Shown: piece after piece, positions 1 through 48,525 of the stretch
Layout of the letters: each line of letters begins with the position of its first letter
Numbering within the stretch: the stretch's first letter is position 1
Assembly (NCBI GenBank): GCA_017556805.1
Contig: JAFYMC010000005.1
Coordinates: 1 to 55,485 of the forward strand
DNA length: 55,485 bases
Source of the DNA: Lachnospiraceae bacterium
GTDB taxonomy: Bacteria > Bacillota > Clostridia > Lachnospirales > Lachnospiraceae
Reading direction: 5' to 3'
Program-made: the position numbers and the translations under genes
Notes under the pieces: generated by a model
Seen by the model: the letters and a program-made list of their open reading frames with translations, nothing else
Databases searched by the model: none
Told to the model about the DNA's origin: nothing

Positions 1-3000
1 GAAGGAGTCGTAACAGTAGGTAGCTGCCACCTCTCCGTCCGAAAGCAACGTCACTACGTCGCCGTGAGCGTTGTACAGATACTGATAGGTCTCCTCAGCA
101 TCATCTTCACCATATACCGTACGCAACAGTAGAGGTCCGCCGTAGGTGTTCTTTGCCGTTATACCGTCCTTATCTGCCTCCATTATAACATGGTTTCCGT
201 CGTAAAGGAAATAGGTATTTGTGGTTATTCCATTCTCGGCAACAGTCTTTTCCACCCGGTAGCCTGCGGCATTATATATATTAGTTATCACTGTATCTTC
301 TGTTACAGAACAGATAAGCTGATTACGAAGGTCGTAGGTATGAGTCTTTGTTATAACTTCTACCTTTCCGCTTTCCGTTATGTTAGCATATCTCGTCTGT
401 TTTTCTGTCAATCGATTTCCGTTGGCATCGTATGTATACTCCGTTTTCGATACCGTCCGGTTGTCTACAGTCGTCAGAATCTCCGTCAACTTACTCGGTT
501 CATCATAGATATACTCTGTCACAGTTTCTACATCGGTTTTCCCATCCTTTACTTTTTCAAAAGCTCGCTCACCATACATCCCATAGGTATAACTTATCAC
601 ACTGCCATCCGGTTCGGTTACAGTTAATAAGCGATTCCTTTTGTCATAAGTATAGGTTGTTTCTCCACACATTACACCATCTGTAAATTCAATCTTAGAG
701 ATAAGATTTCCAACCCCATCATAATTGTAGCTGAACTGATCTACAATCGTGCCGTCCGCAAGCTTGTTGGTTACACCCTTTACCAAACCGTTTCCGTAAA
801 AGGTGTACTTTTCCGTACTACCGTCCCCGTAGGTCACTTGCTTTCTGGCTCCGTTATCATAGTAGGAAATCTCAACCGTTTCCTCCCTGCCGTCTGTACT
901 CTCCGTAATCACCTTCACAACACGGTTTTGTCTGTCATATACGGTCTTGGTCGTTCCGGCAGCATCGGTTTGCAGTTCATAGTGATACCCGGACTCCACA
1001 CCATCGGTCAAGTCATATTCGTAGAATACCGTTCCGAAATTCGGTACTGTCTTCTCCGTTACTCTTCCCAACTCGTCATACTTGTAAGTAGTGGTCCCAC
1101 TTCCGTCGGTCATTGAGCTCAAATTTCCGGCAAAGTCATATTGATACGTATATGTACTTTCCCTTCCGTCAATACCGACTGCCGTTTCGGACACCAATTC
1201 TCCATATACATCGTATTGGTATGTGTTTATTGTACCGTTCGCATCTATCATGGTCTTAACACTACCATCACCGTTATATGTATATTGTTCTACGCCAATA
1301 CTATAGATATTTTTTTTAAGCAACAAATCTGCAGCGTTGTATGTATACGACACAATTGAGAAACTACTACCATCCTGCCAAGTCAGATTTCCTCTGACAT
1401 CATATGTATATCTTGCTATATTCAAGGAGTTACTATAAATACTACGGAGCTTACCGAACCCATCATACGCATAACGTGTTACACTTTCGTTTCCATCTGT
1501 AACTGTACTTAAATTTCCGAGTGAATCGTACGACTGAAGTGTAGTATAGCCTTCTGCATCCGTTGTCTTTGTGATGCGCCCCGAACTATCATACTCATAT
1601 GATATGATATTTCCCATAGCATCCTTCTGCTCTATGCAATTTCCCACAGCATCATAAAGATAGCTCACCTGCACTATTCCATCCGGAGAAACAACCATAG
1701 TCAGATGATTAAATGCATCATAGAAATAACTTGTTTTATTTCCGAACGTATCTATCTTCCCAATCACATTTCCGTTAGCATCATATTCTGTTTCCGCAGT
1801 ATGTGCCTTTTCTGATACAGTCAATGATTCCGAAGTTATGCGGTCTAATGCATCGTATGTATACGATGTGGTTACCCCCGCCGCATTTGTGTACGTCTTA
1901 ATATTACCGTTTTTATCGTAAGTATATTTTTCCTCACGACGATCCTCCCCACTCGCATCAGAGACAATCCGCTTTGTTACATTTCCAAAACAATCATACT
2001 CTATTTTTGTTACGGTTCCGGTAGAACTTATTATGGATACAAGCTGCCCTGCAAGATCATAGCCATAGGTTTCCTTATAGCTATCCATTCCCTCAGCTCC
2101 GGTTATCTCCTTTGTAAGCAACAGGCCCAACGAGTTATAAGTATAGTTCGTAACAAGTCCTTCATCAGTAATTTCTGTCAACACATTTCCTGCACCGTCA
2201 TAGTTGTAGGAAACAGTATACTCCGCTCCGTCCTCTACAGCTTGACGTGTTACTGTTCTGATATTATCCGACGCATCATAGGTATAACTTATCGTACCTT
2301 CGAGTGCATTATGCTCCGTTAACAATCGCCCTAATGCATCGTAATGATAGCTTGTTGCGTAGGACAACTCCTCCTCTTCTGCTTCCGGAGTTATAATCTC
2401 TTTTATTTTACCATTCGAACCATATACATATGACGCTTTGACTCCCTTCTCATTTTTTTCACTGAGAAGATTTCCGTTTTTATCATACTCATATTGACAA
2501 ATAAGAGTGCGCTCCGGGCTTTTTTTATCACCGACAATGTCAACTTCAACAATTGTCAATACCCTTCCGAACGAATCGTATGTATATTCTATGTGCGGCA
2601 AATCCCAAACAGATACGCCTCTTCTATAATTCGCCGGCGTGACTTCTGCTCTACATTTTCCGGCACGATCATAACTATACCATGTTATACCACCTTCTGC
2701 ATCTCTGATAAAAACACAGTTTCCGATACCATCATATTCGTATACGGTTTCGTTTCCGTTCGCATCAATTTCTTTACATATTTTTCCAAGAGCATTATAT
2801 TCACGCGTCTCCGTCTTTGTTTCCCCGTTTTTTCCTTTAACTGTAATATCAACACAGTTTCCCAAACGGTCATATGAATATGTTGTCTCAGTGCCATCCG
2901 GTGCGAGTTCTCTTTTCAAACGTCCCTCTTTATCATACTCATAGCCAGTTGTAAGTTTTACCATCCCTGTCGTTTCATCAACTTCCACATTTCCAATAAA

Positions 3001-6000
3001 ACCATTTTCTTCTGTATAGATACTTGTCGTGGACGGTTCACTCAAATGATTATATGTATATGTTTTAAGACTGGACTGCATATCAGAGATTTTCGTTTCT
3101 TCACTTAGGCATCGATTGTCCGCGTCATATGTGTATGTCGTAGTCATCCCATTCGCATGCGTTATGGAACATAGTCTGCCCACTCTATCATACTCATAGT
3201 TTATAGTAATTACCTCTGTCGGAATCTCACCATTTTCCACCAAGTTTACTCCTTGTACTTGTGACTTAATCTGTCCGTCTCGATTATATGTCATACCTTG
3301 ATATGCATAAATATCTACCCCGTCTACCCATACAATTCCATTACTCGGTATCCACATCCCGGTGCAATTCTTTAATGCATCATATTGATAATATGTAGGT
3401 TGTGACAAAGCATCCCATTCAACCTCTAACAAGCCATCCTGACGATACTTCTTTTTTACTGTGATGTTTCCCGGATTAGTCTGTTCTACTAAGTTACCGT
3501 TATTATCATACAAACAAATTATGACATCGTAGTCTGTTGCCGTTTTATAAATTTTCTCCTCCACTTTCAATTTTTTGTCATAAACCGAGTATGTATATTC
3601 CTTTGTCACATATTTCATATCACCTTTCTTTTCTCTTACTTCTACACATTTAATACGATTCTTTGCATCGTAAGTATAATAATACTCTGCTCCTAACGGT
3701 GTTTTCTCATACGCAACATTACCATACTTGTCATAACGATATTGTGTAACATTCCCCTTTGGATCCTCTTTTTCTATCAGATTTCCTCCCACATCGTATT
3801 TATACTCATATGGAAAAACCTCACTCCCTTCAGCAGAAATCTCCATTTCAGGAAGTCCCTGATAGTTATATCTTACTTCTGCAGTTTCGCCCTCATGAAG
3901 AATTGTCTTTGTCAACCGACCGGCCTCATCGTACTCATATGCCGTTTTATAGCCTTCCGGGGATACCTGGGAAATGATTCTTCCAAGTTCGTCGTATTCA
4001 TAAGAGGTTGTATATCCAAATTCGTTTTCCATTGTCAAGCGATTACCGTATCTATCATACGTAAACGATGTGACCACTCCCTCCGGCGTAGTTAGCGTTT
4101 TCACTAATCCATTGACCGGACAACCATTTTCCATTTTATCATAATAAGTATACGATGTAATAGCAAACTGATCTGCATCAGCCTCTTCAGAATAACTTAC
4201 GTCACTACTCAGTTCCACAATTTCACGAATCATCAATCCGGAATCATCAAACTCATAACGTGTAACAACACCCATCTGGTCCTGATAGAAAACACAATGA
4301 TTTCTTTCATCGTACCTAAAAATTTCAACACCTCCATCAGGATGAGTTATTCTGGTAATATTTCCCTCTGCATCTCTTTCGTATCCTGTATAGTTACCTA
4401 ATACATCCCATTCAAACTGTAATTCACCATACTTCGTCTCACCATCTGCGTCTTTCCAGTATCCATATTGTAAGGTTTCTCCTTCTGCGTCTGTAATACC
4501 TATGATATTATAAAACTCATCATAATAATGTGTTTCGTAAGTCCCGTCACTATTTGTAATAATTGTAGCTTTTCTTTCATCTTCATATGAGAAAGTACGC
4601 ATATTTCCATTAGTGTCAGTGATAGAATCAACACGCCATTGTCTATTCTTCTTTACATATGTAAGACGTTCTTTTATATTTCCCTTATCGTCTATCACTT
4701 CACTGATACCATATGCCGCATCGCCTTCGTAACGGTAACTTTCTGTAACATCATCTACACCAATCACATCAACCAGACGACCTTTCGAATCGTAGTGATA
4801 CTTTACAGTTCTCCCCGAAAAATCAGTAATAGAAATCAAACGACCGTTTTCATATGCAACCCTTGTCGTTCTTCCCACACAATCCGTTATTGTCAATGGA
4901 TTGCCGATTCCATCCACGGTTATCAAAACCGTATTCCCTTGCTCATCACTGATTTTATACATTGCGCCGTTTTTATCATAAAAATACCTTGTATTATCAG
5001 GTGTGGTTAGTATAAGTTCACCATTTAACCCAATTTTGATTGAGTTCCTCGTGCACATTGACACATACCCATTTTCTGTAGACTTGAAGTAGTCCTCCCT
5101 ACCGTCCGGCATCTGTACAAATCTAAATTTCTCCCCATATTTTTCGGACTCATATGTCTTACATGCGTAGTTAAAGTCCCATCCGTTTCCAAACACACTC
5201 TCATCATCTATCTGTAAAGAATTATAGGTACGAACAAACTCCATAGTGCCATCTAAACAAGCATAGGAAAGATCTGTTTTTGTTATGGAATAATTTCCTG
5301 TTGCCGCGTGCACTCCTTCCGTTTTCTCAAAAATAATTTCTGTACGTATCTCTCCCCCCAGTTGGTGGCTCCAATCAATATTTCCAACAATATGCTCTCC
5401 GTTACCTACAAGTTCCCCATCTTCGTAACGTGTTGGTCCTCCCGGATCCCCCCAATAATTGTATCGGGCATCAACGACAATAGAATCCTTATTGTTATTC
5501 ATTGCGTATGGATTCCCCGAAAAAAAACAGTAATTGATTATAGGCACAGTATCAGAATCCACATAAATTCCATAAACCCTTGAATTAATAATATCACTAT
5601 TTGTGATATTAGCCTCTCCTTCTATTTTTACTCCGTAAAAAGCATAACTTAACACATTGTAATACGCTTCATATTTTCCCCCTTTGCTTACAGTTATTCC
5701 GTTCCAGCTCGGAATAGCGGCATCTGAGATATCATTCAATTCAGAAACACCTACTGATGTAAGCACAATCTTTTCATCCGGTGTTCCTATTGCTGATAGA
5801 GTTCCTTCCACCGTTATCCCCTTTATTACTCCAAAACGCAATTCAGTTGCAGGCTCTATTGTCAATCTCTCTCCGGATTCAATCTTAATATTATCGCATG
5901 CATACAAACCTTTCGGAATAGTAATATTGTCACTTACATTTCCTCCCAAAGACAAGAGATTTGCTTCCTCATTTCCTTCAAATTGATTCGCCTTTATTTC

Positions 6001-9000
6001 AACCAGTTCAAATCCGGTATTCAAGCCCCCTAATTCTACATAAATTGGACTATCCCCACATTGACGCACAATATTATTTTGTACTTTAAATATTCCAGCG
6101 CCTATAGACTCAATGTACACCCCATCAGAACTGCAACCTTCAACCAATGTATCTGACATTTTACATGCACCAAAACCGGTATTTTGAACATAGACACCGA
6201 TTCCTCCGCCTCTTATCCTACAATTAGAAATCTCTGTATCTGTGACACTCTGTGATACATATATCCCATACCGTTCTGCATCTTCGATTGTACTGTTTTG
6301 AATTGATAAATGTCCTCTAGTTGAGATATTATTTACACCCCTTCGTAATACACAATTATCCAAAAGAACCACACCGGTATTTCGGACGTTAATTCCTCCC
6401 CAACTTCGTTCTATATCTCCTTTATCTATTCCAACATATTCCGGGTCTTTTGCATACGTAATAACAACCGGACTCTCGTCTGTTCCCGTTGTCTGCATAG
6501 TGCCTTCAATAATTATCTGACATCCACTAAGTGCTAATACCTGTACCCCCGATACCAATTCCAAACTAATCCCTTCCGGAACAATAATGGTTTCACAAAA
6601 ATATCGTCCAGCCGGAATACTTAAATCTTTGTGCAAAGTTCCGGACAATACCAGATCGTAAAAGTTTTCACTTCCGTCGACTATATTATTTTTTATATTA
6701 ACAAGTTTTCTACCGTCACTTAACTTGCCTAACGCCACATATATCGGATGACTACAGCAATCAAAAAACGTATTATCTGTAACTATATATTCTCCATCTC
6801 CCACAGAGCTAAAATGAATACCATACTGCAAACTTCCTGTTATCGTAGAATCAATAATCGTTACATTTCCCATTCCCTGTTGATTAACATATATCGCTGT
6901 TTCTCCCTCAATTATACTTTGTTTTACATTAAGCGTAGATTCCTTTTCCACATATATTGCATACTCCGTTTTATAATCATTATTGTACACCGCCTTTATA
7001 GTTGTGTTCTTACAACTAAATTTTCCTTTCTCCATTACTGCAACCAATGCGTTTTTTTCTCCGCTTATATTACATCCCGTTAAATCTGCACTTCCTTCAA
7101 CATAGATTATTGCAAAATCCAACCCGCGAAGAAAATTATCTGTAGATATAAAATCCGTGTTTTCCGCAATCAACACTGCATTCTCACGTATATCGATTCG
7201 GCTCGTTTCTGGCATAGAAGAACCTATATTCCGATATTCTATTCTTTTCTCTTTCAATCCAAGTAATTCCAATCTTCCTTCCACAAATAATTGTGAGTAC
7301 GCCTTGGTTATTATACTTGAACCGGCAACAAATCTCAAAGTCCCCTCAGGTTTAACATAGATCTTATCTAAACAATAGTTTCCTTCAGGCAACTCCACTT
7401 CAGAAGAAATAGTTCCGGAAAAAGATATGTAATTTTGGCCTTCGAACACCTCATTATCATTTATAAAACCAAATACATCTTTTTTCTCTATCTCAGATAA
7501 CGACACCACAATTTTTCCGTTTCTTTCGAATATGTTTTTCTCTATTTTCACATTTTCTTGTCCCAAAGATACTATTTCTATCCCTGTGTAATACCCTCCC
7601 TTTGTAGGAAAGAAATTGTCCACAACAATAGCCGAACCCGCCCCTGATTGCGCTATACAAATCCCCGAGTCTGCTCCCTTTATCACATTGTTTTTCACAT
7701 AAATTTTGGACTCATCATCACAATAAATTACGTAGGCATCCCCTTCTGTACCTATTTGTTCCATCTTTTCCAATGTAGAATCAACACATACTAATTCTCC
7801 TGTATCAAATACATTAATGATACTCTGGGTATAACTATTTAACGTACAATTCTTTATATCCATTATACCGTAGACCAAAAAAGATCTCTTTATATAATTC
7901 AGCGTTCTTCCTCCCATTCCAATAAAATCAGTATGCTCTGCCACAAACTTTCCACCGGAATATACCTGTATGCTCCCCCCTTGCCATTCTACTCTCTCAT
8001 TTTCTGTACCATTCAAACTCATTGTGCCATATATATCAATTTTCCCTCCCCATGCACTATATATCTTTACCCCGGCATTAACCTTCAGATGACCTCGAAC
8101 AGAAAGTTCTTCCAGACTATACTGCCCATCCCTTAACTCAAAATCGTTGTATAGAGTTCCATGTAATGATACATAATCATGTTCATTTTCTCCTGTATAT
8201 ACTGCTTCACAATATAACCACTCCAAATCACTTATATCATCAATAAGACTTATATTAACCCGAAACGGGAATCTACAATTACTGATTACATTCCTTTCCA
8301 ACGTAACATTATTCCAATTAACTTGCTGGATGTCTATTGCGTATGTTCCCTTTTCTTCAACATGACACTCAGACATCACAAACTGAGCCTGATTCCCTTG
8401 ATAAAGATAGACCGCGGCTGTTCTACCTCGAAGAGTACTCATCTCCAAATCAACATTTCCCGACGAGTTTACATATATGGAATAATTATCTCCGCTTAAT
8501 ATCGAATCATTACAATACAAACTTCCACTCTCTCCCACATATATCAATTGCGTGGATCCGCCTTCCATTCCACAACTATTCAGATGCACTTCCCCCTTTA
8601 CCGAAATGCCGCTCCATCTTACACTAGTAGATGATTCTTCCGCCAGATTATATACATGCTCCGCATATAAACTTCCCCCTTTTTCAATATAAAAATGTCC
8701 TCTTCCTCGAGTCGTCGTAAAATGTATTGCTTTCTCTTCTTCTCCTAACAACAAAGCTTTACCCTTAACGCATATTCCTGTGGACTCATAAAAATCAATC
8801 TTTGTTCCTGCTTCTACCCTAAGTATACCGTCCTTTTCAACCCACATCCCACCAAAAATGTATGTTCCTTCCATAAGACTTAACTCGCAGTTCAGTGTTC
8901 CTCCCAACGCGAGATAACATCCATTTTCTTCTTCAATATCACTGAAATAATTAATCTCCTCTCCCGTACAAAAGAAATCACACACTACAAAAACAGGGTA

Positions 9001-11406
9001 TAGCTGTTTGTCAAGTAACCGATTATCCTTTATAGATATTTCACCCATACCTAAACTGTCAACCAACAATCCATAACGTCCATTCCCAGCCAACTCAGAC
9101 TTATTCATTACAAACGAGGCTAATCCTTGTTGTTTAATCTTTACAGACACATCATGAGATTTAATGTTACATTCTTCAATTTCAACTTGGGTCTCACCCT
9201 CGACAATAATAGCTGCTTCCCCATTATACCAAGTGTTGAAGTCATTATAAACTTCTATATTTGACCGCTTGCAAATTAACTCTCCCTTTCCTGTAAGACA
9301 TATTCCAAATAAATATCCTCTAACATCACAATCTCTTAATTCTACCGTACCTTGTGACCAGATAACCCTTGAATTACTTTTTTCTTCATCCTCTCCTAAA
9401 CTACAAATCAATTTTGTATACTGTGCCCTAAACACTCCCCTTTCTTCGACCTTAACACCGTTCCAATCTCCGTCTATCTTCTCACAATCTACAATATCTT
9501 CATTTCTATTTGACACAAACACAATTTCTTTGTTTTCTTCACCTTCTGCGATTACACTCCCCTTTATATTTATACCTGCATTTTTATCAAATCTAAGAAT
9601 TGTGCCAGCCTTAATCCGTAGCGTTGCCCCCTCTTCAACCGTAATCTCTTCTACTACCTCGTAACTTCCGACATCATCTCCCCATACAGTATCTTCTGTA
9701 ATCACGCCTCCCACTTTTTCTATGTTTGTATAATTAATCTCTTGACTTTGAACAGCACATTCTCCCTCTTCATCAACTCCACTTATCTGATAACTTTGTT
9801 CTGCATAAGCATCTTGTATTACATACTGAAATGCCCCTCCGCTAACGCATCTCACTTCACTTACAACCTTTTGATTAACTTTCACTTGATACTTACTTAT
9901 GTTTTCAACCGTAGTCCATGCCAAATAAACCGTCTCTTTATTCTTATAAGACACGGTCAATTCTATTCTTTCCTCCTCTGGTTCTGGCGTTACTGTAGGG
10001 TTCGGACTCGGCGTAGTCGTCGGCTCCGGTCTTGTCGTTGGCATTGGTGTCGCTGTCGGACTAGGGCTTGGCGTCACAGTCGGAACCGGGCTTGGCATTG
10101 CTGTTGGCTTCGGCGTCGCGGTCGGAGCCGGACTCGGTGTTGCCGTTGGCATTAGCGTCGCGGTCGGTGTCGGACTCGGACTTGGCGTTGCCGTTGGCAT
10201 TGGCGTCGCAGTTAGAACCGGACTCGGTGTTGCCGTTGGCATTGGCGTCACGGTCGGTGTCGGACTCGGACTTGGCGTTGCCGTTGGCATTGGCGTCGCG
10301 GTCGGTGTCGGACTCGGACTTGGCGTTGCCGTTGGCATTGGCGTCGCGGTCGGTGTCGGACTCGGACTTGGCGTCGGCGTCGCGGTCGGTGTCGGACTCG
10401 GACTTGGCGTTGCCGTTGGCATTGGCGTCACGGTCGGTGTCGGACTCGGACTTGGCGTTGCCGTTGGCATTGGCGTCGCAGTTGGAACCGGACTAGGTGT
10501 TGCCGTTGGCATTGGCGTCACGGTCGGTACCGGGCTCGGACTCGATGTTGCTGTTGGCTCCGGTGTGCTTGTCGGAGCAGGATTTTCCTCTTCCGCATAT
10601 TTCCCTGTATATTCTGCTTCCGACGGAATTTCTAATTCATCACCCTGTACCGTATATCCGAAACTAATACTTTCTCCTGGTGCGATTTTCTGCATCTGAT
10701 TCTCGCTTGCAATCACATATTCATTTCCGTTCTGCTCCGCTATCTGCGCATTCCAAATCTGAATAATCTCACCCTTTTGGGTATACAAAAGAGACCAATT
10801 CTCCATCTCTCTTGATCCGGTATTGGTCAGGATAACATTCATATTGCAGTGATTTTCCCATACATTTTCTACTACAAACTTAACAGAAAAACCATCTCCC
10901 TGTACGCAAAGAGATGCCCCTTGTACAGGCGTGGTCTCTGTTATAACAAAATACTCTCCCGTGTATTGCACCGTTGTCGGAAGTACTATATGCTCCGATT
11001 GTAGAACATAGCCGAATTCTACGCTTGCTCCTACTTCGACTTTTTCATTCCATCCAATGTTTTCTACCGTATATCCATCTTCTTCCTGTTCCACAATCTG
11101 TGCATTCCAAATCTGGGTAATCTCTCCCTTCTGGTCAAAAAAGAGAGCCCAATTTTCCATTGGTCTATCCCCGGTATTCGTTAGTCTTGCTTTCATTGTA
11201 CAATGATTTTCCCATACGTTTTCTACCAGAAACTCAACTTCTAAACTATCTCCCTGTACCGTAGATACAGTCCCCGGCATCACATCTTCTGCAGCGTATA
11301 CCACAAATGATTTTTCTGTTCCTGCAGGTGCTATACAGCCTATCAAAATAGACACTACCAGCAGAAATGATAATTTACGTGTTACTTTTCTTAACAGTGC
11401 ATTCAT
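1..11406 (-). CDS. Giant secreted RHS/YD-repeat protein with cellulose-binding-like modules and beta-helix (partial, C-terminus off window)
   Basis: The frame is open from ATG 11406 to the left edge (3,802 codons, no stop). RBS AAGGGG lies 8 nt upstream. Seen in order: signal peptide (about residues 1-40, ending near VVYAAED); two CBM2-like modules (about 45-136 and 159-259), each with an NTG...ENW...WNAQI...G.SV.FGY pattern; a Pro/Thr linker of 16-residue repeats (about 273-473); an Fn3-like segment (476-556); about 1,470 residues of right-handed beta-helix repeats (N.I.G..GIYV type, 563-2036), closing with a [11 protein letters not shown] motif; an RHS entry domain resembling DUF6531 ([10 protein letters not shown]...FVRTYNS); then dozens of YD repeats (Y-D-x-x-G-[NR]) to the edge. 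The architecture recalls WapA-type wall or secreted RHS proteins, which usually end in a variable toxin domain; here that end is not visible. Cellulose or cell-surface attachment is inferred. Expression is probably set by the upstream c-di-GMP riboswitch. Confidence 0.93.
10134..10545 (-). repeat. 48-bp tandem repeat encoding the Pro/Thr linker
   Basis: A 48-bp unit (16 residues, [16 protein letters not shown] type) recurs with near-identical copies, plus shortened 36- and 42-bp variants. All are multiples of 3, so the frame is kept. The copies are clean enough to recombine or slip, giving a linker of variable length between the binding modules and the beta-helix. Confidence 0.9.
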
Positions 11407-11448
11407 TTTAAGTTTCCCCTTCTTCTCATGTTTTATGGCAAGTAAAAA

Positions 11449-11473
11449 GGCTGCAAAGGAAACCTTTGCAGCC
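11449..11473 (-). terminator. Intrinsic terminator in the leader of the giant gene
   Basis: A perfect 11-bp stem (GGCTGCAAAGG / CCTTTGCAGCC, loop of 3) is followed on the minus strand by TTTTT. It lies between the riboswitch aptamer and the start codon. Its 5' arm shares GGCTGC with the 3' end of the aptamer, so the two structures should compete. Confidence 0.9.
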
Positions 11474-11553
11474 GAACCATCATAAGGATGTATTATATCC
11501 CCGTAGACTTCCAACTTTGCGTCCTTACATTTCTGTAAGTTTGCCGTAGTCTA
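11468..11553 (-). ncRNA. c-di-GMP-I (GEMM-I) riboswitch aptamer
   Basis: On the minus strand the leader reads CGGCAAAC (11539-11546), then a 6-bp stem capped by a GAAA tetraloop (CUUACA-GAAA-UGUAAG), then GGACGCAAAG (11515-11524), CUACGG, a second stem GGAU...AUCC, and UUAUGAUGG...GGCUGC. GCAAAC plus GAAA plus GGACGCAAAG is the signature of the c-di-GMP-I riboswitch class. It begins essentially at the predicted transcription start. Because its closing 3' strand overlaps the terminator arm, I infer that c-di-GMP binding favours read-through (ON switch); this direction is inference only. Confidence 0.88.
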
Positions 11554-11559
11554 GCAATA

Positions 11560-11588
11560 ATAATACATCGTTTTTTAAACTCTGTCAA
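11560..11588 (-). promoter_or_regulatory. Sigma-A promoter of the giant RHS gene
   Basis: Minus strand TTGACA (11583-11588), 17-nt spacer, TATTAT (11560-11565). The -35 lies inside the last codons of the upstream MutS-like gene, so the leader RNA begins right after that gene's stop codon, at the aptamer. Confidence 0.85.
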
Positions 11589-13182
11589 CCTCTTTTCTCA
11601 ACACACTGTCATACAAATCCAATCCGTAGCTGGTCAGCTCCGGTTCCTGCTCCACCATGCGGAAGGTACGTTCTCCGTCCTCTTTCCGCTCTGCGGACAG
11701 GAAGACGGCGTGCTCCAACTTTTTCGCGTAGCAGCTCTGGGCAAAGGCCATGAGGTGGGTAACCATCATGACACGGATGCCGCGCTCGTAGAGAGCGGTG
11801 GTAATGTCCTCCGCGATAATGGAGCCTTCCTTCTCCGTGGTGGTGGCAAAGGACTCGTTTAAAAACAGGACAGAATCCTGCGTCAGGTTGTCGATGATGC
11901 GCTCCATTCTGCCTAGCTCCTCATCGAGACGGCCGCTGTTCATGGCGCTGTCCTCTCGGCGGGTAAAGTGGGTAAATACCCGGCTGTACAGTCCGCTGGC
12001 AAAGCTCTTTGCCGGAACGAACATGCCGCACTGCATCATGATTTGGGCAATGCCGATACTGCGCAAATAGGTGGATTTTCCGCCCTGGTTGGCTCCGGTT
12101 ACCACCAGCAGACGCTTATCGCTTGCCTGCAGGGAATTGTCCACCGGACAACGTAGCGTATTGATGGCAAGGCTCAGCTCCACCAGACCTTCAAAGCGGA
12201 TATGCTTCCTGTCAATGATTTCCGGGAAACAGATATCCACATTCATCCGCTTCATTCTGCGGTATAAGTTGGCCGCCCCCATCAAAAAAGCCGCCTGGGA
12301 GTGGAGCTTTGAGAAGAATACCTCCTGCTCCTCCAAAAAACCTTCAAACGGACGCATAAGACCGCCCAAGGCCGCATTTTTTATGTCATAGATATCCTGC
12401 CAGAGGTTCTGGTTTTCTCCCTCGAATACCAGCTCTTCCACCGTAAACAACTGCTTACAGAACTTTCCGAACCGGTCCGCCGCATTTTTCAAGAAGGTAA
12501 GCTTTATTTTATTGGACTCCCAAATATCGGTTAACGTCATGGAGGACATAAAAAGTCCCGGTCCCAAGGACGCCGTCACATCGATAATTCCGTCGGTCAG
12601 GGAGGAACGCAAATCCTTTACCACCTTTTCCAGACAAAGCATAAACTCTGCGGAGTATTCTTCAAAGAAGGCTTCCGAAAAGGTCTTCATCTCCGGCGTC
12701 ACAAAGCGGGGACTCCAATCCTCCAGGGCATCCCGCACCCTGCCGATATGATATACCATATGCTCCAGATATTCCACATTTGCCACATTCCGCCGGCCCA
12801 GATCCGTGCCGCTGCCGTAGCCCTGCTTTTTCTTTGCCATGGTATATTTTGCAATATCATCCACCGCAGCTTTGATTCTGCGGTAAAACTCATCCATCCG
12901 GTCATAGTTGGAGATAGCTTCTTTTACCATCTGCTGACGATACAGCACCTCCTCCGGGGTGGTAAGCGGCGTCAACATGACACGCTTCATCATATCCATA
13001 ATATCATTGTTCCGCTCTTTCGCCACCTGTACGGTTTTCCCCGCCTCTGCCGCTTCGTCGTAAAGAGAGGCTGCCGCCCGGAACAAAATATGTAAGTTTA
13101 AATCCTTAACGATTTCCTCCCGGTCAAAGTAGAGCTTTTCTCTTCCCCATTCTCTGTCGGGATACAGTAACGTTACCTTCAT
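11575..13182 (-). CDS. MutS domain V family ATPase (second of tandem pair)
   Basis: 535 residues. The C-terminal half is a MutS-type ABC ATPase: Walker A GANQGGKST near residue 363, Walker B-like VLFLNESFA, and a later MVTHL switch. The N-terminal half is helical (MutS core/lever-like). It lacks the mismatch-reading domain I of MutS1 and an obvious Smr endonuclease domain of MutS2, so it belongs to the short MutS-like families whose role is poorly known. Its ATG overlaps the stop of the preceding MutS-like gene by 4 nt (ATGA), which suggests translational coupling and perhaps a heterodimer. A mismatch-repair role should not be assumed. Confidence 0.88.
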   Translation of the reverse strand: MKVTLLYPDREWGREKLYFDREEIVKDLNLHILFRAAASLYDEAAEAGKTVQVAKERNNDIMDMMKRVMLTPLTTPEEVLYRQQMVKEAISNYDRMDEFYRRIKAAVDDIAKYTMAKKKQGYGSGTDLGRRNVANVEYLEHMVYHIGRVRDALEDWSPRFVTPEMKTFSEAFFEEYSAEFMLCLEKVVKDLRSSLTDGIIDVTASLGPGLFMSSMTLTDIWESNKIKLTFLKNAADRFGKFCKQLFTVEELVFEGENQNLWQDIYDIKNAALGGLMRPFEGFLEEQEVFFSKLHSQAAFLMGAANLYRRMKRMNVDICFPEIIDRKHIRFEGLVELSLAINTLRCPVDNSLQASDKRLLVVTGANQGGKSTYLRSIGIAQIMMQCGMFVPAKSFASGLYSRVFTHFTRREDSAMNSGRLDEELGRMERIIDNLTQDSVLFLNESFATTTEKEGSIIAEDITTALYERGIRVMMVTHLMAFAQSCYAKKLEHAVFLSAERKEDGERTFRMVEQEPELTSYGLDLYDSVLRKEVDRV

Positions 13183-48213: not shown

Positions 48214-48525
48214 AAAAGTAGCCTCTTTTATTTTCTTTCACATCGTTCTGAATATAGCCGGCGCCCTTTCAATTATTCTCTTTGAACTTTACGCAGGATA
48301 GTAGACTATCTTATTACTTCGATGACTATCAGCAACGCACGGACAGGAGGTCCGGGCGAGCCCGCCATAAGGCACGGATGCCGCATCAGGGCGGTTGCGT
48401 CACTTCTTCATATATTCTCCCGAAGTAATTAGAAAGCCTCTATCCGTAGTACGAGAAAAGAGGATAATTGAAAGGGCGCCGGCTAATTTCTATTTGTTAC
48501 GAAAGAAATAAAAGAGGCTGACTTT
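48214..48525. repeat. 300-bp fold-back element downstream of spoVAC
   Basis: Outer arms AGCCTCTTTTATTTTCTTTC (48220-48239) and the near-perfect complement at 48501-48519; second arms about 29 bp (48255-48284 with 48456-48485, one wobble); GGATAG/CTATCC (48296-48301, 48439-48444); ATTACTTCG (48313-48321) / CGAAGTAAT (48421-48429). The centre holds GGAC-AGGAG-GTCC, GGGC-GA-GCCC and GGCA-CGGA-TGCC hairpins. No gene. The outer arm touches the spoVAC stop codon. Either a MITE-like element or a structured RNA. Confidence 0.78.

Follow-up and report, generated by a model that had tools for sequence, protein, structure and literature searches.

The question raised by this locus is how expression of a giant, putatively secreted protein is controlled by the short leader between its start codon and the gene upstream, and to which signal that leader might respond. 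The window, by which we mean the whole 55,485-base stretch of DNA analysed, is contig C4 of the assembly, which starts at window position 1; the assembly comes from an uncultured gut bacterium, comprises 2.9 Mb in 37 contigs and is 86% complete. The giant gene occupies 1..11406 on the minus strand, beginning with the ATG at 11406, and 3802 codons are visible before it is cut by the contig edge. A first-pass annotation, made from the letters alone, had placed a promoter, a c-di-GMP-I aptamer and an intrinsic terminator back to back in front of this gene, and we found exactly this order on the minus strand, with the promoter at 11588..11560, the aptamer at 11555..11464 and the terminator at 11473..11449. 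We consider it probable, and hold this with good confidence, that the leader is a transcriptional c-di-GMP-I ON switch for the CBM2/beta-helix/RHS gene and that it belongs to a sessile-state regulon of the genus.

The identity of the aptamer, as proposed by the annotation, was borne out by a covariance search with the Rfam c-di-GMP-I model (RF01051, cmscan), which matched 11464..11555 (minus strand) over the full model (positions 1–87) at 61.8 bits (gathering score, 35) and an E value of 1e-9 for the 55-kb window. The aptamer has a GAAA tetraloop, the GCAAA and ACGCAAA boxes and the ligand-contact G and C, where the boxes and the two contact bases are placed as is usual for the class and the names G20 and C92 follow Vc2 numbering. 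A corresponding search of ten genus genomes gave 26 c-di-GMP-I aptamers, distributed over 8 of them; the C corresponding to C92 is kept in all 26 and the G corresponding to G20 in 20. When the 24 distinct genus sequences were aligned, the Rfam pairs formed in 92.5% of cells and 16 of the 22 pairs showed changes on both sides, i.e. compensatory changes, while none of 500 shuffles scored as high and slid versions of the pairing reached at most 43.2% of cells. The window leader shares no more than 71% identity with any of the other 25 genus leaders, the nearest being that of a CBM2-pair subtilase gene (G002:C151), and it gave no blastn match against phages. The riboswitch of the window is an ordinary member of the c-di-GMP-I class.

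The terminator hairpin, GGCTGCAAAGG-TTT-CCTTTGCAGCC at 11449..11473 (minus strand), consists of 11 pairs and a loop of 3 and is followed by TTTTT; its predicted energy is −18.2 kcal/mol (z −5.3), and none of 200 shuffles was equally stable. The first base of its 5′ arm, GGCTGCAAAGG, is 11473, which is still part of the aptamer, as the latter extends to 11464. The annotation had let the last six bases of the aptamer double as the start of the terminator; the overlap itself stands, and its length has to be corrected to 10 nt (11473..11464). These comprise the GGCU at 11470..11473 (minus strand), which is the 3′ strand of the P3 base with its four pairs and at the same time the four bases with which the terminator begins, and the bases that follow, including the C at 11468, presumably C92 of Vc2 and thus the ligand-pairing cytosine. 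Such an overlapping terminator accompanies 20 of the 26 genus aptamers. Upon shuffling of the 60 nt behind the aptamer, −10 kcal/mol was reached in 8 of 500 trials for the other 25 genus aptamers and in 4 of 200 for the window aptamer, for which −18.2 kcal/mol was reached in none of the 200. The six aptamers that lack the overlap count against an ON explanation; four of them are followed by a separate downstream hairpin (G000:C27, G001:C62a, G003:C23 and G008:C152b), and neither an overlapping terminator nor a separate downstream hairpin was found for G001:C62b and G008:C152a.

Because the aptamer and terminator folds exclude each other, we read the leader as an ON switch, which is the best reading of the window riboswitch and, as a computational prediction, a very likely one. 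Mutual exclusion had been suspected by the annotation and follows in our models from the 10 shared nucleotides with their four P3 pairs and the invariant C. We folded eight transcript ends in combination with three assumed starts (11552, 11555 and 11557), and for every start, among the ends folded, P3 remained closed up to a transcript end at 11453 and the terminator fold won from 11450. This predicted transition suggests that the switching decision would be made within a stretch of roughly 14 nt and depend on kinetics and ligand. In the mechanism that we propose, the transcript would begin at the aptamer edge or slightly inside it, and without c-di-GMP, about 14 bases past the aptamer, the downstream strand would capture the aptamer's 3′ end (the P3 base and the ligand-pairing C). 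The captured 3′ end would then form the 11-bp terminator and transcription would stop; with c-di-GMP bound, the 3′ strand would stay in the aptamer, the terminator would be blocked and the giant secreted protein would be made.

The predicted energies can also be read in another way, namely that c-di-GMP binds and the terminator forms anyway, or that the ligand even favours termination, which would make the leader an OFF switch or leave it without a switching function. In the apo state, the terminator fold has an advantage of 11 kcal/mol over the most stable fold with the aptamer pairs retained (for the full leader from 11555, −36.0 kcal/mol vs −25.0 kcal/mol with the aptamer pairs enforced), and the class I switches of Clostridioides difficile are described as OFF switches, a description that by analogy would count against an ON explanation, although one class I gene is listed there as up in RNA-seq (PMC6200980). 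An OFF switch, however, needs an aptamer and a terminator that coexist, as the folds of the OFF switch Cd1 are described to do, unlike those of pilM (PMC9262584). Here the two elements have 10 nt in common, the ligand-pairing C among them; they overlap and hence leave no separate antiterminator strand between them, and the overlap is kept in most of the genus aptamers, as counted above. We rejected an OFF switch as the best reading because the terminator is built from aptamer bases, and we regard a leader that works as an OFF switch or not at all as unlikely. The ON switch that we prefer has its closest counterpart in pilM of Geobacter metallireducens, described as a cGAMP ON switch whose aptamer and terminator cannot form together, C75, the ligand-pairing base, being tied up in the terminator; the likeness extends to a closely related aptamer, to a terminator that uses the aptamer's own 3′ strand and to the sequestered ligand-pairing C (PMC9262584). 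Unlike pilM, the window aptamer has a G at the specificity position, which predicts c-di-GMP, and the two switches have other targets.

The promoter lies partly within the gene upstream. Its −35 hexamer, TTGACA at 11583..11588 (minus strand), is placed within the final codons of a MutS domain V gene (11575..13182, minus strand), the 3′ end of which thus holds it, and is separated by a 17-nt spacer from the −10 hexamer, TATTAT at 11560..11565 (minus strand), which ends 4 nt short of the start of the Rfam model. Together the hexamers make 11 of 12 promoter matches; by count, a simple scan of 501 bases is weak evidence, with 2 promoter-like sites vs 0.8 expected and, in the same region, 1 terminator-like site vs 0.4 expected. 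As a raw count, 13 of the 26 genus leaders have a promoter-like pair (9 or more of 12 matches) whose end is no more than 10 nt from the start of the model, and the gap of 4 nt in the window leader compares with 3 nt in G001:C32. That the leader starts at the stop codon of the MutS domain V gene would fit a hairpin that mainly terminates this upstream gene, next to an aptamer that is a decaying relic. We consider this highly improbable: the aptamer is full-length and high-scoring with its invariant positions intact, the promoter with 11 of 12 matches stands where the upstream gene ends, and the arrangement recurs, as judged by eye, behind other upstream genes at other loci of the genome. The MutS domain V gene is one of a neighbouring pair of such genes upstream of the riboswitch (14744-11575, minus strand; 521 and 535 aa).

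Because the promoter is so near the aptamer, the transcript should start within the 5′ strand of the classical P1, at an expected 7–8 nt or so past the −10 hexamer, and aptamers of this kind may function with a very short P1 or without one. With a weak classical P1 and an expected start inside its 5′ strand, affinity could be low; a short or absent P1 would speak against a very tight aptamer and would, to that extent, count against the ON-switch explanation. For a start at 11552 and an end at 11464, the predicted apo fold equals the Rfam fold in the core. For starts at 11555 or 11557, the 5′ end is predicted to pair with GGC(AA) in a helix of 3 or 5 bp that competes against the aptamer core, and this helix would likewise count against the ON explanation if transcription began at either position. 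In another genome of the genus (G004:C23, 143375-143465), a promoter with 12 of 12 matches overlaps the start of the aptamer model by 3 nt; this aptamer precedes a frame of 1978 codons, and the transcript would be without a classical P1.

The specificity position, model position 11, which we take to be nucleotide 20, is a G in the window aptamer. In a Geobacter aptamer, an A-to-G change at nucleotide 20 is described as switching specificity from cGAMP to c-di-GMP (PMC6456294). Six of the 26 genus aptamers, including two of the window's genome, have an A at model position 11, which raises the question whether the natural ligand could be another cyclic dinucleotide, 3′,3′-cGAMP, and not c-di-GMP. 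The genome holds 17 GGDEF loci, and by eye the Asp position of their GHxxGD motif is D in 12, N in 4, T in 1 and Ser in none; Ser at this position is linked to Hypr enzymes. Given these residues and the G in the window aptamer, cGAMP as the natural ligand is very improbable, and we rejected it for the window aptamer on the strength of the G at the specificity position. The A-type aptamers (G000:C9 29559-29642, G000:C28 20929-21022 and four relatives) are found beside G-type aptamers within the same genome.

The gene that follows the leader encodes, as the annotation had it, a CBM2/beta-helix/RHS protein, with a Pfam layout of two CBM2 domains, eight beta-helix stretches, DUF6531 and 21 RHS repeats; by eye, a signal-peptide-like start and a P/T-rich linker can be added. 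The CBM2 domains span 10606..11241 on the minus strand (10957-11241 and 10606-10884; Pfam CBM_2, 94.4 bits vs a cut-off of 24, in two stretches), and DUF6531 at 5086..5319 (minus strand, Pfam) heads the RHS part. CBM2a of C. fimi has three surface tryptophans, and in an alignment with it (1exg) the first CBM2 has all three; the second CBM2 has two, the third being missing. Among solved structures, the first CBM2 is matched best by the chitinase module 6bt9, so that chitin is a possible ligand besides cellulose. Attachment to fibre by this giant, putatively secreted protein is plausible. The combination by which RHS polymorphic toxins are recognised, DUF6531 with RHS repeats, is present, and the C-terminal tip of the gene lies beyond the contig edge. 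The protein resembles WapA-type Gram-positive RHS proteins in its DUF6531 head and many YD/RHS repeats, and it is unlike them in its N-terminal CBM2 pair and beta-helix, its riboswitch control and the position of its tip beyond the contig. The DUF6531 search also matched the B. subtilis control genome, presumably in WapA, and a search of named genomes for the beta-helix/RHS junction found no relative. On another contig of the same genome (G000:C34, 1-14000) we observed short orphan RHS pieces together with a frame matching Tox-MPTase4 and a transposase of the IS110 type; this region looks like a store of RHS tips, as expected of a genome with RHS tips.

Among the ten genus genomes, nine genes start with a CBM2 pair and eight other genes carry CBM2 near the C-terminus. 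An aptamer lies directly upstream of eight of the nine (G000:C4, G000:C25, G001:C32, G002:C151, G006:C129, G008:C80, G008:C154 and G008:C165), with no more than 215 nt between its end and the first candidate start codon, and of none of the eight controls (Fisher p 3.7e-4, with genes treated as independent though they are not fully so, because the controls seem to fall into two groups of orthologues and the G008 leaders are duplicates). The apparent orthologous groups among the controls comprise six genes of ~610 aa and two of ~950–1100 aa, with CBM2 domains 514 to 874 residues past the first Met of the frame; in one control, G001:C41, a second CBM2 match falls below the cut-off. None of the eight controls has an aptamer on its contig, and we rejected CBM2 in general as the target on this count. 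The ninth gene with an N-terminal CBM2 pair, G009:C77, had no aptamer within 1 kb even at a relaxed threshold, and its whole genome gave no c-di-GMP-I match; as a CBM2-pair gene without an aptamer, it counts against the regulon reading. The bodies behind the CBM2 pair differ, being VWA with TSP3, TSP3 with the rest cut off, subtilase, CarboxypepD_reg (Ig-like) repeats, none at all (268 aa) or beta-helix/RHS, the last an exception found only in the window gene; DUF6531 occurs in 1 of the 10 genus genomes, that of the window. Three G008 leaders are 89–97% identical and the genes behind them differ, which points to duplication of the leader; in the same genome, two leaders with 97% identity precede a CBM2-subtilase gene and a small gene without a Pfam match. 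A further reading, whose chances we put at about even, is a module of the genus in which an ON-switch leader for c-di-GMP is followed by a signal-peptide-like start and a CBM2 pair and the bodies behind them have been exchanged; one second messenger would then deploy varying fibre-directed proteins along with type IV pili.

Outside the genus, we checked upstream of 20 chosen CBM2 genes (19 from other genera and G009:C77) and found an aptamer at three, two in G205 and one in G119, with 17 of the 20 lacking one. All three show terminator overlap by eye, and the G119 CBM2 gene is interrupted by a stop. In a family sample of 299 genomes, c-di-GMP-I aptamers occur in 110, CBM2 in 74 and DUF6531 in 62. 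For the 84 DUF6531 matches in these genomes, an aptamer within 10 kb upstream was seen by eye only at the window locus, among the best 150 aptamer matches. RHS proteins as the usual target of such switches were rejected on this proportion (1 of 84 DUF6531 matches near an aptamer, among the aptamer matches listed). Pairing of the aptamer with RHS looks rare, and its pairing with a CBM2 pair looks frequent in the genus and occasional outside.

The window's genome contains eight c-di-GMP-I aptamers. Besides the window's CBM2/beta-helix/RHS gene (C4), they are followed by a CBM2-pair VWA/TSP3 protein (C25), a VWA/TSP3 protein (C9), a type IV pilus operon with two T2SSE and one T2SSF (Pfam) and pilins recognised by eye (C28, 89724), a P/T-rich protein with a signal-like start judged by eye (C27), a lipoprotein-like protein, again by eye (C18), and a lipoprotein-like protein with DUF6273 (C28, 20929). 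The eighth aptamer (C29, 19020-19115) has an overlapping terminator and precedes a gene with a broken-looking 5′ part, followed by a 284-aa frame without a Pfam match. The sessile-state regulon of the genus that we propose would place N-terminal CBM2-pair proteins, VWA proteins and a type IV pilus operon under such switches.

A c-di-GMP-I ON switch upstream of an adhesin gene is already known: Bc2 of the Bacillus cereus group is described in this role in front of cbpA, and the window, with its predicted c-di-GMP-I ON switch before the gene of a putative surface adhesin, resembles it. According to that report (PMC7423583), CbpA binds collagen and is wall-anchored, unlike the window target with its CBM2 pair and beta-helix/RHS. 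C. difficile likewise has several riboswitches before surface proteins and type IV pili; as described (PMC6200980), class II ON switches control putative adhesins and pili there, unlike here, where class I with an overlapping terminator precedes adhesin-like and pilus genes. In our searches of the open-access literature, we found neither a CBM2-pair module nor an RHS protein under a c-di-GMP riboswitch. Through a simple RNA-based switch, such an arrangement would connect the sessile/motile messenger with a set of secreted proteins directed at cellulose or chitin in uncultured members of the Lachnospiraceae. Should the switch act as proposed, the attachment decision of fibre-associated clostridia could be tested with short RNAs, and there would be a handle for regulating a giant RHS protein; the CBM2-pair module is the part worth following.

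Two further structured RNAs were observed elsewhere in the window. A TwoAYGGAY RNA lies at 48289-48452 on the plus strand (94.9 bits vs a gathering score of 43). A DUF3800-XI RNA at 42710-42663 on the minus strand (61.4 bits) sits at the 5′ end of a frame (42718-41954, minus strand) whose DUF3800 match is barely above the cut-off.
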